32,412 nt of DNA. It comes from a virus. Made by a program: the position numbers and the translations under genes. Below are positions 2,237 through 10,688 of the stretch, piece after piece. The DNA lies in IMG/VR virus record IMGVR_UViG_3300008450_000243, positions 1-32,412 of that record. The stretch is one strand, 5' to 3'. A model generated the notes under the pieces. That model saw only the letters and a list, made by a program, of their open reading frames with translations, made no database searches and was not told the DNA's origin. Each line of letters opens with the position of its first letter. Within the stretch, counting starts at the first letter, position 1.

Positions 2237-2419
2237 ATGATGTTAGCATTCAGATACATCTCACGCAATTTCTTTGATGTCTTTTGGGGAGATGGTTGGG
2301 ATAACTGTGCAAGAGTCAAACGAACTCGTGATAATGAGTTTGTTATTGTTCGTGCATACAAGAAACCACCAAAAGATTTTGTTAAACTTTTAAAGGAATC
2401 AAAACATGAAGCCATATAG
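2237..2419 (+). CDS. Small basic protein, unknown
   Basis: A 60-residue protein starting MMLAFRYISR, with CAAGGAGT before the ATG. It is basic and aromatic (FFDVFWGDGWDN, then RVKRTRDNEFVIVRAYKKPPKDFVK), looks like a compact beta/alpha fold and has no membrane helix. It overlaps the amidoligase gene by 14 bases, so it is the first gene of that operon and is probably co-translated with it. I do not recognise the family. An antiparallel frame of similar length lacks a ribosome binding site. Confidence 0.7.
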   Translation: MMLAFRYISRNFFDVFWGDGWDNCARVKRTRDNEFVIVRAYKKPPKDFVKLLKESKHEAI

Positions 2420-3968
2420 TTTTGCTGAATTTAATAAACGCTTTAATATGTTTGGATGGTTACATCCTGACATTCGTCAAACATATTGGACCAAAGAAGA
2501 TACTGATTGGGATTACGAAACGCAATCAACAATTCGTAAAACCTATACGCTATCTACAATTTGGTACAATGATGTGCGTTTAATACAGTTTTATACCAAT
2601 GACGATGGTAATGGTCATAGAAAACTAACTTGTTATAATGTTTATCGTGAACATGCGAAACAAGTAGGTCTTACAACCCATCAAAGTTATAGATGTAATG
2701 CATCTACAATTATGGATGCGTTGTATTATCGTGTTAATGCACCTAATTACTATAACAAAAATGGTACACTCAAGAAAGGTTTTTGGAGTGCTTTAGTAAG
2801 ACGACTAAGATCTAATGCTTTACGATCCAGTTGGGTTACACAACACATGTTGCATGAAGGTATTAGGATTGCTGAAGCTAACTATCCTGGTGCTAATTAT
2901 GAAACTATAGAAAACTATCTTGAATCTAAAAATGTACCATCATGGTCTTATTACAAAGACTTCTTAACTCGTGAGTTTCACATTGATGGTGAACAAAGAC
3001 GAGTAAGACTTGGTACTAATGGTTGGGTACAAGTTCATAAAACTACTGATCCAAGATCTTATGGGTATACTTACAATGAACGCAATGATATTTGGTTAAC
3101 ATCTATTCAATTCTATCATGATGGTCATGTATATAATCGTGATGAAGTAGACATTGTAGAATGTAGAACATGTGGTACTGAAACAGTATCTGAACTTTGT
3201 ATTGATGGTGTATGTCATCACTGTCTTGATGCTAGTTACAAAATACATAACTATTCTACTCGTGTAGAAAGTATGCTTAAGTTCAAAGCTACACGCGTTA
3301 GACCTAACACTGTGTATCTTGGTTGTGAACTTGAGTATGAAACAACCAATCGTAACAAAGCACAACTTGGTGTTGGTAAGTTACTACATGGTCATGCTCT
3401 TATGAAATCAGATGGTTCAATTCGTAATGGTTTTGAGATTGTAACATGTCCTGCTACATTGGACATTCATTTACAAGTATTCAAATCATTCTTTGATAAC
3501 TTACCACCTGATCTTAAAGTAGAAAAGAATGTAGGTATGCATGTTCATATCAGTCGGAAACCCTTGAGCCAGTTGACTCTTGGTAAGTTGACTGAGTTTC
3601 TTAATCGTCAAGATAATAAACAATTCATTGCACATATTGCAGGTCGCATAGATAATAGCTATGCTCGTATGAGTAATGAACGCACAGTTACATTTCCCTG
3701 GCGTAACAAACATGGTGGTGATAGATACAATGCACTCAATCTAAACAATCAGAATACTGTAGAAGTTAGGTTGTTTGCAACACCAATGAACTACAAGGAA
3801 TTTGCAAGTCGTATTCAGTTTGTTCAAGCACTTGTAGATTACTGTAGTCCTGCTCAATCTAGTGAGTCGTTAAAGAAACAAACTCACTATGAAGCATTTA
3901 TGCATTGGTTATCTCAACGAAGAAGGATGTTCCCAGAACTTAGTTATCATTTGAAGGAGTTTGTATAA
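2406..3968 (+). CDS. Amidoligase-family enzyme with zinc ribbon
   Basis: The 520-residue protein has three parts. Residues 1-250 are an uncharacterised N-terminal region. A four-cysteine zinc ribbon follows (C253, C256, C270, C273). The C-terminal domain, about 300-500, carries the COOH-NH2 ligase (amidoligase) signatures: GCELEYE (306-312), KSDGSI (334-339), GFEIVTCP (342-349), MHVHIS (378-383), YNALNL (441-446) and VEVRLF (452-457). Amidoligases share the glutamine synthetase fold and use ATP to form amide bonds. The GATase II and ATP-grasp genes follow directly (stop/start overlap TAATG), so the three probably act in one pathway. Substrate unknown. The start has AAAGGAA upstream. Confidence 0.85.
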   Translation: MKPYSFAEFNKRFNMFGWLHPDIRQTYWTKEDTDWDYETQSTIRKTYTLSTIWYNDVRLIQFYTNDDGNGHRKLTCYNVYREHAKQVGLTTHQSYRCNASTIMDALYYRVNAPNYYNKNGTLKKGFWSALVRRLRSNALRSSWVTQHMLHEGIRIAEANYPGANYETIENYLESKNVPSWSYYKDFLTREFHIDGEQRRVRLGTNGWVQVHKTTDPRSYGYTYNERNDIWLTSIQFYHDGHVYNRDEVDIVECRTCGTETVSELCIDGVCHHCLDASYKIHNYSTRVESMLKFKATRVRPNTVYLGCELEYETTNRNKAQLGVGKLLHGHALMKSDGSIRNGFEIVTCPATLDIHLQVFKSFFDNLPPDLKVEKNVGMHVHISRKPLSQLTLGKLTEFLNRQDNKQFIAHIAGRIDNSYARMSNERTVTFPWRNKHGGDRYNALNLNNQNTVEVRLFATPMNYKEFASRIQFVQALVDYCSPAQSSESLKKQTHYEAFMHWLSQRRRMFPELSYHLKEFV

Positions 3969-4906
3969 TGTGTATCGCAATCTATAAACCAGAAGGTAAA
4001 GTAATATCACTAGCAACACTTAAAGAATGTTATACATCTAATCCAGATGGTGCTGGATTTATGTATGCAGAAAACAAGAAACTACATATTGAAAAAGGTT
4101 TCTTCAGCTTTCAATCTTTCTATGATGCATTTAAGAAACATGAAAGCAAACAAACAGTAATTCATTTTAGGATTAAAACACATGGTAAAATTGATACAGC
4201 AAATTGTCATCCCTTTGCAGTTAATAATGCAATTGGCTTTGTCCACAATGGCGTTATTAGTGGGCTTGGTGACGCTGACTTCAGTGATACTGTTAGGTTC
4301 AATGAAACAATTCTTCGTCCTCTTGTTAATAAGTGGGGTAATCTTGCTCTCTTTCAAGATCCTATTGTAAACTTACTAGAGTCTAGAATTGGTTATAGTA
4401 AGCTTGTCTTCCTTGATAGACATGGTAATCATAAGATTATGAATGAAGGTAAGGGTGTGTGGGATGATGGTGTATGGTTCTCTAACACAAGCTACAAACC
4501 TTATGTTGCACCAGCAACTACAAGTGTTAGTGGTTGGGATGATCTTGAATATGATTGGCGTAAGTCTAAATCATATACACCGTATTGGTATACTAAAAAT
4601 GTAGCACCAATTAAAAAGAAATCAACAATCGAAATGGGTGATGTTGTAGAATTACTCGAAGATATTGCTGATCCTGGTACACAAAAAGTTCATGAGACTG
4701 GTACAATCTTTGAAGTTGTTGGTGTTAACCAAGACTTTACTTGTGATCTCATGACTGAATCTGATATTGAAGGTGACAATGATGAGTATGATTTTCTTTA
4801 CAATGTACCATTTCATTCTCTTGAACTTCTTGAAGATGAAGATCCTGTAGGTAAACCAGCATATCATAACTATGCATCACCTTATTTATTGAAAGGATCT
4901 AAATGA
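3968..4906 (+). CDS. Class II glutamine amidotransferase-like protein
   Basis: A 312-residue protein with the N-terminal nucleophile hydrolase pattern of class II glutamine amidotransferases: Cys2 directly after the initiator Met, NPDGAG (25-30), R68 with THG (71-73), NCHPF (79-83) and HNG (93-95). Such domains release ammonia from glutamine or act on related amides. The domain ends near residue 170. The C-terminal part is acidic with no recognised fold and may bind partners. The context between amidoligase and ATP-grasp genes suggests it supplies ammonia or trims gamma-glutamyl-type bonds in the same pathway. It overlaps both neighbours by 1-4 bases. Confidence 0.85.
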   Translation: MCIAIYKPEGKVISLATLKECYTSNPDGAGFMYAENKKLHIEKGFFSFQSFYDAFKKHESKQTVIHFRIKTHGKIDTANCHPFAVNNAIGFVHNGVISGLGDADFSDTVRFNETILRPLVNKWGNLALFQDPIVNLLESRIGYSKLVFLDRHGNHKIMNEGKGVWDDGVWFSNTSYKPYVAPATTSVSGWDDLEYDWRKSKSYTPYWYTKNVAPIKKKSTIEMGDVVELLEDIADPGTQKVHETGTIFEVVGVNQDFTCDLMTESDIEGDNDEYDFLYNVPFHSLELLEDEDPVGKPAYHNYASPYLLKGSK

Positions 4907-5658
4907 GTCTTAAGTTATTTCCTTACAAAGCTGGAAGTATATCAGCTAAAAGATTGGCTAGATCCCTTGGTATTCTAAGGGTTCGGCCAACCTACAATGC
5001 TAGACGCAAAGATGTGATAATTAATTGGGGTAATAGTCATCCACCAAACTTTAGATGGATGGAACAAGACTTAAATAAACCTCATGCAATTGTAAAAGCT
5101 TGTGATAAACTTGAAACATTTAGAATATTACAAGAAGATAATGACTTTAAACATTGTCCTAAATGGACTTATGATAAAAATAAAGCTGCTAATTGGATTA
5201 ATGAAGGTGAAATAATTTATTGTAGGTCTACTACTACTGGTCATAGTGGTCGTGGTATCGTTATTGCTAGTTCAATTGATGAGCTAATTGATGCACCTTT
5301 ATATACTGTTAAGACTAAACATCGTGACGAATATCGTGTTCATATTTTTAAAGGAGAAGTGTTAGATGTACAAAAGAAAAAGAAAAGACTTGGATTTAAT
5401 GGAACTTCTTCAGGTATTCGTAATCATTCTAGTGGGTGGGTATATGCTAGAAGTGATGTTGCAATTCCTGATATGCTATGCACCATTGCTATGGAAGCTG
5501 TTCTTCTTTTAGGTTTAGACTTTGGTGCAGTAGATATAGGTCACAAAGTTAATGAAAATAAATTCTTTGTGTTCGAAGTTAACACTGCACCAGGTCTTGA
5601 AGGATCTACTCTTGACAAATATTCAAAAGCAATATACAATTACTATAGGAGTCTATAA
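4903..5658 (+). CDS. ATP-grasp ligase
   Basis: A 251-residue ATP-grasp protein. Visible elements are the glycine-rich loop TGHSGRGIVIA (112-122), the EYRVHIF strand (143-149), basic residues KKKKR (158-162), D211 in FGAVDIG, and the metal-binding FEVNTAPG (224-231) with E225 and N227. ATP-grasp enzymes join a carboxylate to an amine or thiol through an acylphosphate; those with this C-terminal E-x-N-T-x-P-G motif resemble RimK/D-Ala ligase types. It overlaps the GATase gene by ATGA and has AAAGGAT upstream. With the amidoligase it forms a likely peptide- or amide-making cassette. Product unknown. Confidence 0.85.
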   Translation: MSLKLFPYKAGSISAKRLARSLGILRVRPTYNARRKDVIINWGNSHPPNFRWMEQDLNKPHAIVKACDKLETFRILQEDNDFKHCPKWTYDKNKAANWINEGEIIYCRSTTTGHSGRGIVIASSIDELIDAPLYTVKTKHRDEYRVHIFKGEVLDVQKKKKRLGFNGTSSGIRNHSSGWVYARSDVAIPDMLCTIAMEAVLLLGLDFGAVDIGHKVNENKFFVFEVNTAPGLEGSTLDKYSKAIYNYYRSL

Positions 5659-6173: not shown

Positions 6174-6380
6174 ATGAGATGTTTAGCTTGTAATAGAAAC
6201 TTAAATGACTTTGAGTCTACTAGGAAATCTGCTATAACAGGTGAATATGTAGACTTATGTAACCATTGTTTTCATGAAGTAGAACAAGAAATCCCTACTA
6301 AAGAACGCGATGATCTGCGTTCTGAAGAAGAGATTTTTGATGACAATGTAAATCCTAATGACTTTGAAGCACCACTATGA
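6174..6380 (+). CDS. Small zinc-ribbon protein
   Basis: A 68-residue protein starting MRCLACNRNL. C3-x2-C6 and a second C-x2-C (LCNHC, about 29-33) form a treble-clef or zinc-ribbon type site. The C-terminal half is very acidic (SEEEIFDDNVNPNDFEAPL). AAAGGAATA precedes the ATG. It is the last gene before the strand switch at pqqA. Such proteins often bind nucleic acid or RNA polymerase, but the acidic tail favours protein contact. Function unknown. Confidence 0.75.
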   Translation: MRCLACNRNLNDFESTRKSAITGEYVDLCNHCFHEVEQEIPTKERDDLRSEEEIFDDNVNPNDFEAPL

Positions 6381-6421: not shown

Positions 6422-6493
6422 TTACTTGTTCATTACATACATTGTAACTTCAAAGCCAAAGCGCATTTCAGTAGCTGCTGGTTTAGTCCACAT
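6422..6493 (-). CDS. pqqA: PQQ precursor peptide PqqA
   Basis: A 23-residue peptide starting MWTKP and containing GFEVTMY at 13-19. PqqA is the ribosomal precursor of pyrroloquinoline quinone. In known PqqA the Glu and Tyr of the E-V-T-x-Y core are cross-linked by PqqE and become the cofactor; here they are E15 and Y19. Length, the MW(T/K)KP start and the core all match short PqqA of Gammaproteobacteria and methylotrophs. The ribosome binding site is ideal (AAAGGAG, 6-7 bases before the ATG). The gene has its own promoter (6542-6570) and stands alone against the + strand genes, like a moron. No pqqB-F is present, so host enzymes would have to mature it. Confidence 0.9.
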   Translation of the reverse strand: MWTKPAATEMRFGFEVTMYVMNK

Positions 6494-6503
6494 GTTAAAT
6501 CTC

Positions 6504-6555
6504 CTTTATAGTTTATGATAGAATTTTCATTCTATACTACTATTATACTATAAAG
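6504..6555. repeat. Nested inverted repeats over pqqA promoter
   Basis: CTTTATAGT (6504-6512) and ACTATAAAG (6547-6555) are perfect 9-bp inverted repeats. Between them ATAGAAT (6518-6524) pairs with ATTCTAT (6529-6535) around TTTC. The outer right arm overlaps the -10 box and the left arm overlaps the ribosome binding site region. The inner hairpin lies at the predicted 5' end of the transcript. It could be an operator or an RNA switch on pqqA. Confidence 0.5.
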
Positions 6556-6570
6556 AATGAAAACTGTCTT
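6542..6570 (-). promoter_or_regulatory. Sigma70-like promoter of pqqA
   Basis: On the - strand: AAGACA (-35, complement of 6565-6570), 17-bp spacer, TATAAT (-10, complement of 6542-6547). The -10 is perfect consensus, the -35 matches 4 of 6, and the spacer is optimal. Transcription would start near 6535, leaving a leader of about 42 bases before the pqqA start codon. Confidence 0.75.
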
Positions 6571-6603
6571 GTGGATAAGTGTGAACAATTACTAAGGAAT
6601 ATC

Positions 6604-6780
6604 ATGAATAACTTTACGCATGCTATTGTAGATGATGGTGAGATCATCAGAAAATTTAGATGGTCTCGACGAGAAGTTAAATGGTATAAAGATACCCATC
6701 CTGGAGTAGAAGTACTAGAACTACCTAAGCAATCTGAAAAAGTTTTTAACTTTGATGACTATGAAGAGGCACCTTATTGA
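6604..6780 (+). CDS. Small phage protein, unknown
   Basis: A 58-residue protein starting MNNFTHAIVD. I prefer the ATG at 6604 because AAGGA lies 5 bases upstream. An in-frame GTG at 6571 would add 11 residues but sits on the pqqA promoter and has no ribosome binding site. The protein has a basic, aromatic middle (RKFRWSRREVKWYKD) and an acidic end (FDDYEEAPY). It ends within the primase start (TTGA overlap), so it is coupled to the replication operon. Function unknown. Confidence 0.7.
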   Translation: MNNFTHAIVDDGEIIRKFRWSRREVKWYKDTHPGVEVLELPKQSEKVFNFDDYEEAPY

Positions 6781-7469
6781 GTAAGTTTATTAGACATACA
6801 TCATGCCCTAAGTGTGGATCTAGGGATAATCTTGCTGAGTATGATGACCATGTATGGTGTTTTGGTTGTAAGTATTACAAGACCAAGGATGATATACATA
6901 CTCTACGAAGCAGATTGCAGAGTCAGCAGACGATGCTATCTGATGAGATTAATTTAGATCTTACTGACGATATACCATTGTCAGCTAAGCAATGGTTGCT
7001 TAAGTATGGCATTACTAACGAAGAGATCCGCCAAAATAAAATTGCGTGGGATGCAAATAACCAGGTATTGATTTTGCATTATACGCAAAATTACTGGCAG
7101 GGTAGATGCTTTGGTAATCAGCATCAAAAGTATTTGTCTAAGGGTAATAAGCCATTGACTATTTACGGTAATGGTGATACAATTGTATGTGTGGAAGATA
7201 TCTTATCAGCTATAAAGATTGCTAGGTTATCACCTACATATTGTGCAACACCGCTACTTGGCAGTAGTATGCCCCTAGAAACTACACAATCGCTCTCAGA
7301 ACAATTTTCTAATATCATAGTATGGTTGGATAGGGACAAGGCTAAAGATGCGATTAAGATGGCAAGAAATCTGAAACAAAGGGGTATTAATAGTGAGGTA
7401 GTAATCTCACCTAAAGATCCTAAAGAATATGACAAAGGAGAATTACTTACTTGGTTGAAGAACAGATAA
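6777..7469 (+). CDS. T7-type DNA primase (zinc finger plus Toprim)
   Basis: A 230-residue protein starting at a TTG that overlaps the previous stop. C10, C13, C28 and C31 form the zinc-binding domain that reads the priming site. Residues about 85-225 are the RNA polymerase/Toprim core, with E140 in CVEDILSA and the acidic pair in WLDRDKA (D185, D187) for metal binding. It makes RNA primers for lagging-strand synthesis. In T7 primase and helicase are fused in gp4; here they are separate, adjacent genes overlapping by 19 bases. It is shorter than most stand-alone primases, as expected for a T7-type module. Confidence 0.9.
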   Translation: MSKFIRHTSCPKCGSRDNLAEYDDHVWCFGCKYYKTKDDIHTLRSRLQSQQTMLSDEINLDLTDDIPLSAKQWLLKYGITNEEIRQNKIAWDANNQVLILHYTQNYWQGRCFGNQHQKYLSKGNKPLTIYGNGDTIVCVEDILSAIKIARLSPTYCATPLLGSSMPLETTQSLSEQFSNIIVWLDRDKAKDAIKMARNLKQRGINSEVVISPKDPKEYDKGELLTWLKNR

Positions 7470-8689
7470 TAAATTTATTCTGTAAAGATAGAAATTACTT
7501 TACAAAGTATTACAAGTATGTTAATATTAATTATATTAAAATAAACTATAGTAATATATTTAAGCTATTTATAGTAATAGACTATTACTATAACAAATAT
7601 AATAATAATAATATAACTAAAGAAGAATTAGAGTTAGCTTATAACTCTAACTATTTACTTAAGGACTCTGAAAGAAAAGAACTATCCGATCTTTTAGATC
7701 GTGTCTTATCAGCTGAATTACCTAACCCTGATGCAGTCGTCACTCTGCTTGAAGAGCATCGTAGACGCTGCCTAGCTGGAGACTTAGCTAGACTAGCTTT
7801 AGATGTTGAAGATGGTAAGAGTGATGTTAAAGAACTTATGGATAAGTTTACTGAGTTTGAGCATCAAGAGGTTACATCTGATGAACCTACAGCTATTGAG
7901 CTTAACTTAAGTAATCTACATACATCTCAAGTAGCTACACCTGGTCTAAGATGGAGACTAAACTTTCTTAACCAGTCACTAGGTTCGCTACGCAAAGGTG
8001 ACTTTGGATTTGTATTTGCTAGGCCTGAGACAGGTAAGACTACCTTCTTAGCTAGTGAAATATCCAAGATGATTGAACAAACTGATGGTGATATCATTTG
8101 GTTTAACAACGAAGAGCAAGGTAACAAAGTCGCTATTCGGTGTTACCAAGCTGTACTTGGGGTAACAGCCGAACAGCTCTTTAAAGATATTGAAAGAAAT
8201 CAAGCTTTGTTTGAAAGTAAAACAGGTAGTAGGTTAAAGATATATGACTTTGAAGATTCATCTAGGGCTTCACGCATAGATGCTATACTCAAAGAATCTA
8301 ATCCTGCATTAATTATCTTTGACCAGATAGACAAGATCAAAGGGTTCAAGCATGATCGTAATGATCTAGAACTCAAACAGATTTACCAATGGGCTCGAGA
8401 GATAGCTAAAACATATGCACCAGTCATAGCAATCTGTCAGGCTAGTGGTGAAGCAGAAGGAAAACTATGGCTAACTATGGACATGGTTGACAGCAGTAAA
8501 ACTGCTAAACAAGGAGAAGCTGACTGGATACTAGGTATAGGTAAAGAACAAGATAACTCTAGTCGTTATAGATATTTAAATATCACTAAGAATAAACTAC
8601 TAGGTGACTCTGATACATTACCCGAACTACGACATGGTTCAGCTCAAGTTATGATGAAAGCGGAGATAGCAAGATATGAAGATTTGTGA
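7451..8689 (+). CDS. DnaB-family replicative helicase
   Basis: A 412-residue RecA-fold helicase. Walker A is ARPETGKT (190-197), an acidic NNEE follows (219-222), Walker B is LIIFDQID (287-294), and ICQASGEAEGK lies near 330. The usual first Gly of the P-loop is Ala. The hexameric enzyme unwinds the fork with the adjacent primase. The best start is a TTG at 7451, 11 bases after AAAGGAG; no in-frame ATG occurs before the helical linker. Residues 15-55 are unusually rich in Tyr, Asn and Ile, encoded by an extremely AT-rich stretch with iterated motifs, unlike the rest of the gene. Confidence 0.9.
   Translation: MVEEQIINLFCKDRNYFTKYYKYVNINYIKINYSNIFKLFIVIDYYYNKYNNNNITKEELELAYNSNYLLKDSERKELSDLLDRVLSAELPNPDAVVTLLEEHRRRCLAGDLARLALDVEDGKSDVKELMDKFTEFEHQEVTSDEPTAIELNLSNLHTSQVATPGLRWRLNFLNQSLGSLRKGDFGFVFARPETGKTTFLASEISKMIEQTDGDIIWFNNEEQGNKVAIRCYQAVLGVTAEQLFKDIERNQALFESKTGSRLKIYDFEDSSRASRIDAILKESNPALIIFDQIDKIKGFKHDRNDLELKQIYQWAREIAKTYAPVIAICQASGEAEGKLWLTMDMVDSSKTAKQGEADWILGIGKEQDNSSRYRYLNITKNKLLGDSDTLPELRHGSAQVMMKAEIARYEDL
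7547..7592. repeat. Three TATAGTAATA iterons inside helicase gene
   Basis: TATAGTAATA occurs at 7547-7556 and 7570-7579 and, inverted, at 7583-7592. The last two form an 11-bp perfect inverted repeat (7569-7579 and 7583-7593) with a 3-base spacer. The surrounding roughly 130 bases are almost pure A/T. The features resemble an origin (iterons plus an unwinding element) or an operator, although the stretch is translated. Confidence 0.5.
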
Positions 8690-8837
8690 TGCAACAGTAC
8701 AAGATATTTTAGATTTTGATCATAGTATTTCAGTAGAAGATGCGGAAGACCTATTGCTTTTTTCTTCACAAGATGATACAATAGAAGAAGCTATTGATAA
8801 ATTTTATGGAGAACCGCGAGGAGAATGCGCCCTTTAA
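8676..8837 (+). CDS. Small acidic protein between helicase and polymerase
   Basis: A 53-residue protein starting MKICDATVQD. It overlaps the helicase end by 14 bases and the polymerase start by 13. It is strongly acidic and helical (VEDAEDLLLFSSQDDTIEEAIDKFYGE), with no metal-binding or membrane features. The upstream signal is weak (GGAGATAGCAAGAT). Being tiled between two replication genes suggests a replisome accessory or a DNA mimic, but that is a guess. Confidence 0.6.
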   Translation: MKICDATVQDILDFDHSISVEDAEDLLLFSSQDDTIEEAIDKFYGEPRGECAL

Positions 8838-9979
8838 TCATTGATGTTGAAACAACAATATCTAACAAAGGTAATCCCTTTGATAGAACTAATAAACTTT
8901 GTTATGTAGGAACTAATCATGGACTCTATCCGATTGAATATTCTAATAATCCGTATAAAAGTAATCTTGATAAGATTCAAGATCAGATTGATGCTGCTGA
9001 AGTTATCGTTGGTTTCAATATTAAATTCGATTTACATTGGCTTAAAAACTATAAGATAAACTTCGAAGGTAAAAGAATATGGGACTGTCAGTTGGTACAT
9101 TATATCTTAACTAACCAGACTGAGATGTTCCCTAGTCTTAACCATGTGTGTAAGTACTATAACTTTGAAACTAAGATAGATGTTGTATCAGAAGAGTATT
9201 GGAAAAATAAAATAGATACTACTAACATTCCTGAAGACATTCTTAGAGAGTACTTAGCACAAGATATTAAACTAACACAACAAGTTTATGACATACAAGT
9301 TAAACAACTTGAAGCTTTACCGCATCTTAAGAGACTTGTTAGCTTACACAATCAAGACTTAGTAGTCTTACAAGATATGGAGTACAGCGGTCTTTTATAT
9401 GACGTGGTAAAAAGTAAACTTAAAGGAGATGAATTAGAAGATGAACTTATTAAGATTGATGAATGGTTGTTTCAGTTTCATCAGTGCCCTGATTTCAATC
9501 CCAATAGTACTGATCACCTTAGTGCTTTCCTCTATGGTGGGGATATTGGCCTTAAACGGAGAGTGGTTGTTGGGACTTTTAAGACAGGCACTAGGGCAGG
9601 TCAACCTAAAGAACGTTGGGAAGACTACACTGTAACATTTAAACGATTAGTTAATCCACTGAAAGGATCTGAGTTAATGAAAGAAGGGTTATACTCTACA
9701 GATGAGAATACTCTTAGGTCTTTACGTGGAACTAAAGAAGCTAAAGAGATCATAGAAACTTTACTATTCCGATCTACGATTGAGAAAAGATTATCCACAT
9801 ACTATCGTGGTTTAGTCAAATTGATTGAGGATCATAACTGGGATACAGGAACTATCTTTGGTCAACTGCATCAGAGTGCTACAAGAACAGGTCGACTATC
9901 ATCTAGTAAACCTAACTTACAAAACTTTGATGGAGAAATAAAAGAACTATTTGGATCTAGGTATGCTACTACAAGCTGA
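8825..9979 (+). CDS. Family A DNA polymerase, N-terminal part (exonuclease, thumb)
   Basis: 384 residues. The DnaQ-type 3'-5' proofreading exonuclease has D7 and E9 (IDVET), N65 to D69 (FNIKFD) and Y143-x3-D147 (YLAQD). The rest is the polymerase thumb and the start of the palm, ending with TRTGRLSSSKPNLQN (353-367) that leads towards motif A. The frame then stops shortly after GSRY, and the continuation lies in the +1 frame from about 9951. GAGGAG lies just before the ATG. In T7 one 704-residue chain carries all of this, so this gene is split by a frame change, a programmed shift or a sequencing error. Confidence 0.85.
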   Translation: MRPLIIDVETTISNKGNPFDRTNKLCYVGTNHGLYPIEYSNNPYKSNLDKIQDQIDAAEVIVGFNIKFDLHWLKNYKINFEGKRIWDCQLVHYILTNQTEMFPSLNHVCKYYNFETKIDVVSEEYWKNKIDTTNIPEDILREYLAQDIKLTQQVYDIQVKQLEALPHLKRLVSLHNQDLVVLQDMEYSGLLYDVVKSKLKGDELEDELIKIDEWLFQFHQCPDFNPNSTDHLSAFLYGGDIGLKRRVVVGTFKTGTRAGQPKERWEDYTVTFKRLVNPLKGSELMKEGLYSTDENTLRSLRGTKEAKEIIETLLFRSTIEKRLSTYYRGLVKLIEDHNWDTGTIFGQLHQSATRTGRLSSSKPNLQNFDGEIKELFGSRYATTS

Positions 9980-10688
9980 CGCAAAACAATTAGAGTGGGT
10001 TGGTGCTACGTACTTATCTCAAGATCAAGTAGCTTTACAGGAGATATGGGATAGTGTTGATCAACATTCTGACAATCAAAAAAGGTTTGGGTTACCAAGT
10101 AGACTTGTCGCTAAAACATTTGTTTTCAGACTTATCTACGGAGGATCTGCGTACTCTTATGCAAACGATCCAAACTTTAAAGACATTGGAAATGAAAAGT
10201 TCTGGCAAGGAGTCATAGATCAATTCTATGATAAATACAAAGGTCTTCGAGACTGGCACAAAAAGATTGTAGATGATGTTAAACGAGATGGGTATCTACG
10301 GATGCCTACAGGTAGAACATACCATTACAAACCTGACCTTAAGTATAATAGAGCCGAGTGGCCACGCACCAAGATCCTTAACTATCCAGTGCAAGGACTT
10401 GGCGCTGACCTAATGGCTATAGCTAGGGTTAGTTTACGAAATAGATTAAAAGAAAAGGAAGGAGTAACACTTGTTAATACAGTGCATGATTCAATAATAC
10501 TTGACTTTAATCCTAATATATGGGATAATATAAGTATAGTCAATTTAGTTGACAAATGTTTTAATGATATACCAGCAAACTTTAAGAAGTTGTTTGGTAA
10601 AGACTTCAACTTACCAATGAGAGTTGAATGTCAAATTGGCCCCACTTGGGGAAATATGGAGGTAGTACATGCAAGTAACCGTGATTGA
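9951..10688 (+). CDS. Family A DNA polymerase, C-terminal part (palm, fingers)
   Basis: The frame holds the catalytic core. Counting from 9951, motif A is LLQADAKQLEW with D10; motif B is RLVAKTFVFRLIYGG with R51, K55 and F59; motif C is VHDS with D180. Phe at the F762/Tyr526 position predicts discrimination against dideoxynucleotides. Motif C has HDS instead of the usual HDE, known in some phage enzymes. No good independent start exists: the ATG at 9963 has no proper ribosome binding site. It is therefore probably made by frameshifting, or the break is an error. The SSB gene overlaps its end by 20 bases. Confidence 0.85.
   Translation: MDLGMLLQADAKQLEWVGATYLSQDQVALQEIWDSVDQHSDNQKRFGLPSRLVAKTFVFRLIYGGSAYSYANDPNFKDIGNEKFWQGVIDQFYDKYKGLRDWHKKIVDDVKRDGYLRMPTGRTYHYKPDLKYNRAEWPRTKILNYPVQGLGADLMAIARVSLRNRLKEKEGVTLVNTVHDSIILDFNPNIWDNISIVNLVDKCFNDIPANFKKLFGKDFNLPMRVECQIGPTWGNMEVVHASNRD

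Follow-up and report, generated by a model that had tools for sequence, protein, structure and literature searches.

The pqqA locus and its expression signals

The window, i.e. the whole 32,412-base stretch of DNA analysed here, is a virus record, possibly incomplete, with phage genes for a primase, helicase, polymerase, capsid and tail. On its minus strand, at positions 6493-6422, lies a pqqA gene of 23 codons plus a stop, whose translation is MWTKPAATEMRFGFEVTMYVMNK. The assignment as PQQ precursor peptide draws on this translation, on profile matches and on purifying selection (below). The peptide scored 42.4 bits against PF08042 (curated cut-off 21.1, E 6.4e-11) and 40.4 bits against TIGR02107 (cut-off 20), i.e. 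about twice the curated cut-offs, and TIGR02107 matched none of 14 control genomes. An earlier note on this DNA had described a 23-residue PqqA with an E15-V-T-M-Y19 core and suggested a profile search as well as a comparison with the PqqA of candidate hosts. The description holds, since both profiles were matched above their cut-offs, and the window peptide is letter for letter that of Methylophilus methylotrophus. The E-x-x-x-Y motif is present as E15-VTM-Y19, in which Glu15 and Tyr19 are the residues that PqqE cross-links and that become PQQ. A PHROGs search returned no family for the peptide.

The gene is set against flanking genes that lie on the plus strand, as had been claimed. These are a small ORF at 6174-6380 (+), identified by protein comparison as a homolog of MEP402 gp10, and a small ORF at 6571-6780 (+), without a match in a Pfam search, that separates the pqqA cassette from a DNA primase gene at 6777-7469 (+; phrog_47, E 6e-26). 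A gene for a DnaB-like helicase follows at 7451-8689 (+; phrog_19, E 2e-50). Window pqqA is thus embedded among the genes of a phage, as expected of an auxiliary metabolic gene (AMG).

The window has 23 proteins in common with, and in the same order as, MEP402 (Zobellviridae), a phage of OM43 bacteria; identities are 63% for the helicase, 80% for ribonucleotide reductase, 77% for the major capsid protein and 65% for a tail protein. The MEP401 and MEP402 records name Methylophilales bacterium FZCC0133 as host, which the available text of PMC10580990 describes as an OM43 strain. The MEP402 counterpart of the 6174-6380 ORF extends over the start of the primase gene and leaves no room there for pqqA, which stands about 6 kb upstream of the helicase gene, across the origin of the circular record. 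Since the MEP402 gene stands elsewhere than that of the window, the lineage has had pqqA at two or more positions. Two other regions of the window were noted. At 2406-5658 (+) lies an operon whose genes encode an amidoligase-like protein (PF12224), a protein resembling class-II glutamine amidotransferases (below the Pfam cut-off) and a relative of the ribosomal protein S6 glutaminyl transferase (phrog_2599), the first two of which have MEP402 relatives. At 8825-10688 (+), the DNA polymerase is apparently split over two ORFs and is annotated likewise in MEP402.

The earlier note had also credited pqqA with a ribosome binding site and a TATAAT promoter of its own; both were located, the promoter as a prediction. 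A Shine-Dalgarno sequence, AAAGGAGA, lies at 6507-6500 (-), and purine-rich sites resembling it precede the phage pqqA copies that were inspected by eye. The predicted promoter, AAGACA-17-TATAAT at 6570-6542 (-), consists of a -35 element AAGACA at 6570-6565, recognized by its consensus match and reading ATGACA in several close relatives, a spacer of 17 nt, and a -10 element TATAAT at 6547-6542, with 10 of 12 consensus matches overall. Promoter-like sites in this AT-rich DNA numbered 3 in a 1-kb region against 4.0 expected by chance, and the real evidence for the predicted promoter is the conservation of its -10 element in relatives, not the consensus match. In an alignment of 36 lineage sequences the -10 columns hardly vary, and TG frequently stands one base upstream of them; this alignment is the basis for the -10 assignment, and an automated -10 picker sometimes took a later hexamer than the aligned one.

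A leader stem-loop, ATAGAAT-GAAA-ATTCTAT at 6535-6518 (-), was absent from the earlier note. It begins 6 nt after the -10 element, near the inferred transcription start, and was recognized by stem counts against shuffled sequences and by compensated pairs, the fold in the window alone being only mildly better than shuffles (z -1.6). A perfect stem of at least 6 pairs (G-U allowed) starting 3 to 7 nt after the -10 element was found in 30 of the 36 lineage sequences, whereas the mean frequency in 100 sets of dinucleotide shuffles was 17% and the highest 36%. Among distinct leaders, 23 of 29 have the stem, in the form of 17 different stem-loops, and the fourth pair from the loop occurs as A-T, T-A, G-C, C-G or G-T. 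Stems were counted on ungapped sequences; the MAFFT alignment misplaces the 3' arm where loops differ. Since the pairing is kept while the sequence varies, an RNA stem close to the 5' end of the transcript is favoured over a fixed operator, although a protein-binding palindrome is possible. A stem at the 5' end is known to slow mRNA decay, as in the ompA leader. The motif of a -10 element plus stem, scored with a broader -10 definition, occurs in 34 of 41 lineage copies, in 39 of 117 viral copies from the pattern scan described below, in 2 of the 7 copies from isolates, in 15 of the 127 from hosts and in 60 of 820 randomly drawn segments of lineage DNA. The leader stem-loop is thus a trait of the window's lineage and not of phage pqqA at large.

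Downstream of pqqA, between the gene and the 6174-6380 ORF, folding places a hairpin at 6413-6379 (-) with an energy of -15.7 kcal/mol (z -5.2 on the minus strand); in 8 close relatives its outer arms are invariant and its inner arms vary. The earlier note was thus right about the presence of a downstream hairpin, but it cannot be read as a standard intrinsic terminator because it has no T-run and a terminator scan downstream of pqqA found nothing. Host pqqA copies differ in this respect, 15 of 20 inspected copies ending by eye in a hairpin with a T-run. A phage moron is a gene with its own promoter and terminator, and this label was rejected for the window gene, whose hairpin without a T-run does not provide an intrinsic terminator. 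An Rfam search at gathering thresholds over the window and seven loci detected no known RNA element at pqqA, the only hits being two tRNAs in Melnitz.

Conservation and selection in the window's lineage

The window helicase, which is independent of pqqA, was used as bait to collect relatives, and the best 80 of 220 were kept. Of these, the 48 loci in which 1,100 bases or more precede the helicase gene were scored, and the 32 with less were dropped. An antisense pqqA upstream of the helicase gene was present in 35 of the 48 helicase-selected contigs, a sample from the best 80 of 220 that includes near-duplicates (one contig, L313, has a helicase 100% identical to that of the window). Six of the 32 dropped loci also show pqqA, which brings the overall count to 41 of 80. 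All 35 carriers have the gene in antisense orientation, and in 30 of them it lies 755-794 bp from the helicase gene; the distance is 958 bp in L313. Where helicase identity is at least 75%, pqqA was found in 15 of 15 contigs, and below 75% in 20 of 33, the strand being conserved and the site mostly so down to 65% identity. In the remaining 13 of 48, pqqA was absent from the site; in two of them it lies at another position of the record, and the other 11 showed none in what is often a partial record. When records were instead picked by the tail gene (50 of 52 loci), pqqA occurred in only 3 of 50, many of the 50 being short fragments that possibly do not extend to the early region.

The ratio pN/pS was 0.12 over 31 distinct lineage genes (pS 0.51, pN 0.063; 41 of 42 copies used), 0.18 over 144 distinct viral genes (171 of 175 copies used, four having been dropped for ambiguous bases, a cut at the contig end or another length) and 0.26 for 118 distinct genes of hosts, for which all 129 copies were used. 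Most of the viral and host sets had been retrieved with patterns that fix part of the peptide. The pqqA gene of the window's lineage is under purifying selection. Every one of the 144 distinct viral genes retains Glu and Tyr, most of these genes having been found by a pattern demanding both. As expected of an AMG kept by selection, the lineage gene combines a pN/pS of 0.12 with a constant strand in 35 of 35 carriers and a constant place in 30 of 35.

pqqA in other phages and in methylotroph genomes

The earlier note had proposed looking for the same gene in related phages and metagenomic contigs, and it was found in both, in 10 phage records and at least 120 viral contigs. A tblastn search with the window peptide, run on 50,697 phage records, matched 12 of them, and a second search with a Methylococcales-type PqqA query matched the same 12. 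Ten of them, namely ctXG6705, Venkman, P19250A, MEP301, MEP401, MEP402 and four Melnitz variants, fall into five groups; MEP431-434 and phiMB624-A, which are present in the taxonomy, stand outside this tally. The other two, matches to Acinetobacter phage MD-2021a (L009 and L010), were dropped: the peptide is followed there by pqqB, pqqC, pqqD and a radical SAM gene, and the records have the appearance of bacterial chromosome contigs deposited under a phage name. One of them also holds a polyphosphate kinase gene. No PqqA match was found in MW202697, a 45-kb record with a tail protein 62% identical to that of the window.

None of the seven phage records that were opened, one Melnitz variant included, annotates pqqA. 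Its place is either empty or taken by a hypothetical ORF on the opposite strand, as in ctXG6705 (2067-2195) and Melnitz (2461-2556), where the annotated ORFs are probably spurious. AMG surveys that rely on length-limited gene callers can thus miss precursor peptides.

A scan of viral contigs with the pattern GFEVTMY gave at least 120 contigs, and in all 120 of those listed the PqqA gene starts with ATG and has the usual length. Compared with five sequenced phages, 69 of the 120 share at least two proteins, 90 share at least one and 30 share none; some of these 30 may be host DNA. Together with the window and seven isolate loci, the 120 contigs form 18 neighbourhood groups at a threshold of two shared proteins. 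Among the five phage genomes, a comparison that left out Melnitz, a T4-like phage, Venkman and ctXG6705 share 22 proteins and other pairs at most 6. Venkman and P19250A are placed in one genus-level cluster in the text of PMC8163748 that was available, whereas 4 shared proteins were counted here.

Eight of the viral contigs (L013, L022, L027, L033, L034, L037, L088 and L118) carry PqqA of other types than the one prevailing in Methylophilaceae, such as one with the start MKWET seen in Methylococcales, and phages of other bacteria may therefore carry pqqA too. A 72-kb IMG/VR record (L052/G088) holds a PQQ alcohol dehydrogenase gene (34049-35731), a formate dehydrogenase-like ORF and pqqA within about 8 kb, and represents a large methylophage or else host DNA wrongly entered as viral. 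It was not counted as support: the adjoining ORF, judged by reading its translation, resembles a formate dehydrogenase subunit, and no protein is shared with the isolates. The record remains among the 120.

On the host side, a scan of bacterial genomes with the pattern [MLV]RFGFEVTMY gave at least 119 stretches, and of those listed roughly four fifths belong, by eye and by title, to methylotrophs (Methylophilaceae, Methylophaga, Methylococcales). Twelve methylotroph genomes hand-picked from the 119 listed loci contain 1-7 pqqA matches each, with 3 in the complete 1.3-Mb genome of LSUCC0665 and 6 in M. methylotrophus. A pqqE gene scored above the cut-off in 11 of the 12, the twelfth being a 0.9-Mb assembly of an uncultured OM43 bacterium that is probably incomplete, and pqqC was found in the three genomes tested for it. 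A PQQ-making host, which the earlier note had predicted with a methylotroph as the example and Methylophilales among the candidates, fits these results: MEP401 and MEP402, the nearest cultured phages, have an OM43-type Methylophilales host, the window peptide is that of Methylophilus, and the host enzymes PqqE and PqqC, a lack of which would have spoken against the proposal, are encoded in 11 of 12 and 3 of 3, respectively, of the methylotroph genomes examined for them.

Methylophilaceae genomes are described in the accessible part of PMC4109929 as having 3-12 pqqA genes and usually a single complement of the remaining ones. The dispersed host copies resemble the phage gene in that the same peptide is encoded in several copies beside a single set of other pqq genes (PMC4109929, same text). 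Because several pqqA genes accompany one enzyme set, precursor dosage already looks selected in methylotrophs. In LSUCC0665, two tandem pqqA genes stand 199 bases apart (875052-875313), with a third copy besides, far from pqqE at 765 kb.

A proposed role for phage-borne pqqA

The PqqA peptide is a substrate and not an enzyme; its Glu15 and Tyr19 are cross-linked by PqqE with PqqD, and the product is then trimmed and finished by PqqB/PqqC, so that each PQQ costs one PqqA. The window was searched for pqqE, pqqC and PQQ alcohol dehydrogenase genes, and none was found in the 32-kb record. The same searches were applied to 50 pqqA-bearing viral records, a subset of the 120 listed contigs chosen mostly for length, with methylotroph genomes as positive controls for pqqE and pqqC. 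No record had pqqE above the cut-off (one weak match reached 27.7 bits), none had pqqC, and one, possibly host DNA, had a PQQ alcohol dehydrogenase gene. The proposal that the phage adds pqqA without pqqE and pqqC is thus borne out for the window by searches for these two genes.

On the evidence of sequence and its conservation, we consider it likely that the window gene is a working pqqA that serves as a stand-alone AMG of a phage of Methylophilaceae (OM43/LD28-like) and raises the PQQ supply of the host. The phage would supply the consumable part, and the host the enzymes PqqE, PqqD and PqqB/PqqC. A sigma-70-type promoter of its own, readable by host RNA polymerase, would drive the phage gene, and the leader stem-loop of the window's lineage probably keeps the short mRNA alive. 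If the phage shuts off or outcompetes host transcription, the supply of PqqA would be cut; a phage-borne pqqA with a host-type promoter could sustain it at a cost of less than 200 bases. The PQQ-dependent methanol dehydrogenase would then stay loaded, and energy from methanol would continue to be available while host gene expression declines. We infer that more PqqA would give more PQQ and hence sustained methanol oxidation; expression of the phage gene, processing of its product by host enzymes and an effect on PQQ and methanol oxidation are presumed in this scheme. According to PMC6520949, as far as its text could be consulted, disruption of pqqA in M. extorquens AM1 lowers PQQ without abolishing it. 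The precursor is therefore not always limiting, since PQQ is still made in that mutant.

Four other readings rank below this one. The first is that the antisense transcript, rather than the peptide, is what matters, running against the early operon and tuning the primase or its neighbours. All 35 lineage contigs have the gene antisense to that operon, and the conserved promoter and stem-loop would suit such a transcript. However, the coding sequence is under strong purifying selection, and among 113 records elsewhere in which both neighbours of pqqA were called, by our own ORF calls, the gene is codirectional with both in 43 and opposite to both in 41. We regard this reading as unlikely when taken alone, though antisense transcription could act in addition to the peptide.

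Slightly less probable is a decoy, i.e. a phage peptide that competes with host PqqA for the same enzymes, occupying PqqD/PqqE and lowering host PQQ, for instance to limit formaldehyde or for another function. Nothing would require a decoy to retain the cross-linked residues, whereas every distinct viral gene has Glu and Tyr in place, in a set whose detection was partly biased towards them. The window peptide, moreover, should be a normal substrate because it is identical to a host PqqA.

That the gene is a neutral passenger taken from the host by transduction would be consistent with its shortness and with the occurrence of identical host peptides, but we think it very improbable in view of the purifying selection, of a strand that is conserved, and a site mostly so, down to a helicase identity of 65%, and of a promoter and leader that differ from the ones in front of most host copies (the -10 plus stem motif occurs in 34 of 41 copies from the lineage against 15 of 127 from hosts). 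A chance ORF resembling PqqA, conceivable for 23 codons, was rejected as negligible given E 6e-11, scores about twice the curated cut-offs and the same place and strand of pqqA in 35 of 48 relatives.

Beyond the stand-alone AMG of the window, the records compared here incline us, by a small measure, to a broader view: that it is common for methylophages to carry pqqA but not the other pathway genes, a trait acquired repeatedly and, at fewer than 30 codons, overlooked, by which several lineages would raise PQQ through substrate dosage alone, and that at least one of these, the window's, may have a dedicated expression unit of sigma-70-type promoter, mRNA-protecting leader stem-loop and strong ribosome binding site.

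Viral pqqA is already in print. In PMC7678222, as seen in the text at hand, a T4-like methylophage population from Lake Baikal, VP_266, encodes PqqA and methanol dehydrogenase. Like the window, VP_266 is a predicted Methylophilaceae virus with PqqA, and its authors propose support of the PQQ-dependent methanol dehydrogenase; it differs in being a T4-like metagenomic population with methanol dehydrogenase, whereas the window is of the MEP401/402 (Zobellviridae) type and its 32-kb record has no PQQ alcohol dehydrogenase. Beyond VP_266, pqqA recurs here in cultured phages of several groups. A survey of reservoir sediment names pqqA, with pqqD and pqqE, among virus-encoded genes (PMC13188868); the portion of that source available treats viral pqqA as a phosphate-solubilisation gene and gives neither a locus nor a link to methylotrophs. 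In papers on OM43 phages, 'pqq' does not occur in the main texts of PMC8163748 (Venkman) and PMC10580990 (FZCC0133 phages), and in the main text of PMC9004378 (Melnitz) it occurs once, in a culture medium, with no mention of phage pqqA. Within the open-access literature, subscription journals lying mostly outside the search, we recognised no report of pqqA in cultured methylophages or of its wide spread, and found its spread and anatomy described nowhere in the texts as available.

Other phage AMGs include psbA. Melnitz carries mazG and phoH, as the accessible text of PMC9004378 states. All three resemble pqqA as host-type metabolic genes kept in phages. Unlike these, pqqA yields a consumable precursor peptide and not an enzyme, and would thus act through dosage.

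If the proposed role is correct, one of the smallest phage metabolic genes known would be a regular feature of methylophages, and its recurrence in viruses of methylotrophs suggests that the methanol-burning machinery of the host is kept supplied during infection. Infection may then sustain or accelerate the oxidation of methanol by OM43 and LD28 cells, through which algal methanol is connected with CO2 in coastal seas and in lakes. Cultured phages that already carry pqqA are Venkman and Melnitz (on H5P1), MEP301, MEP401/402 and P19250A, with which the effect of infection can be tested now.
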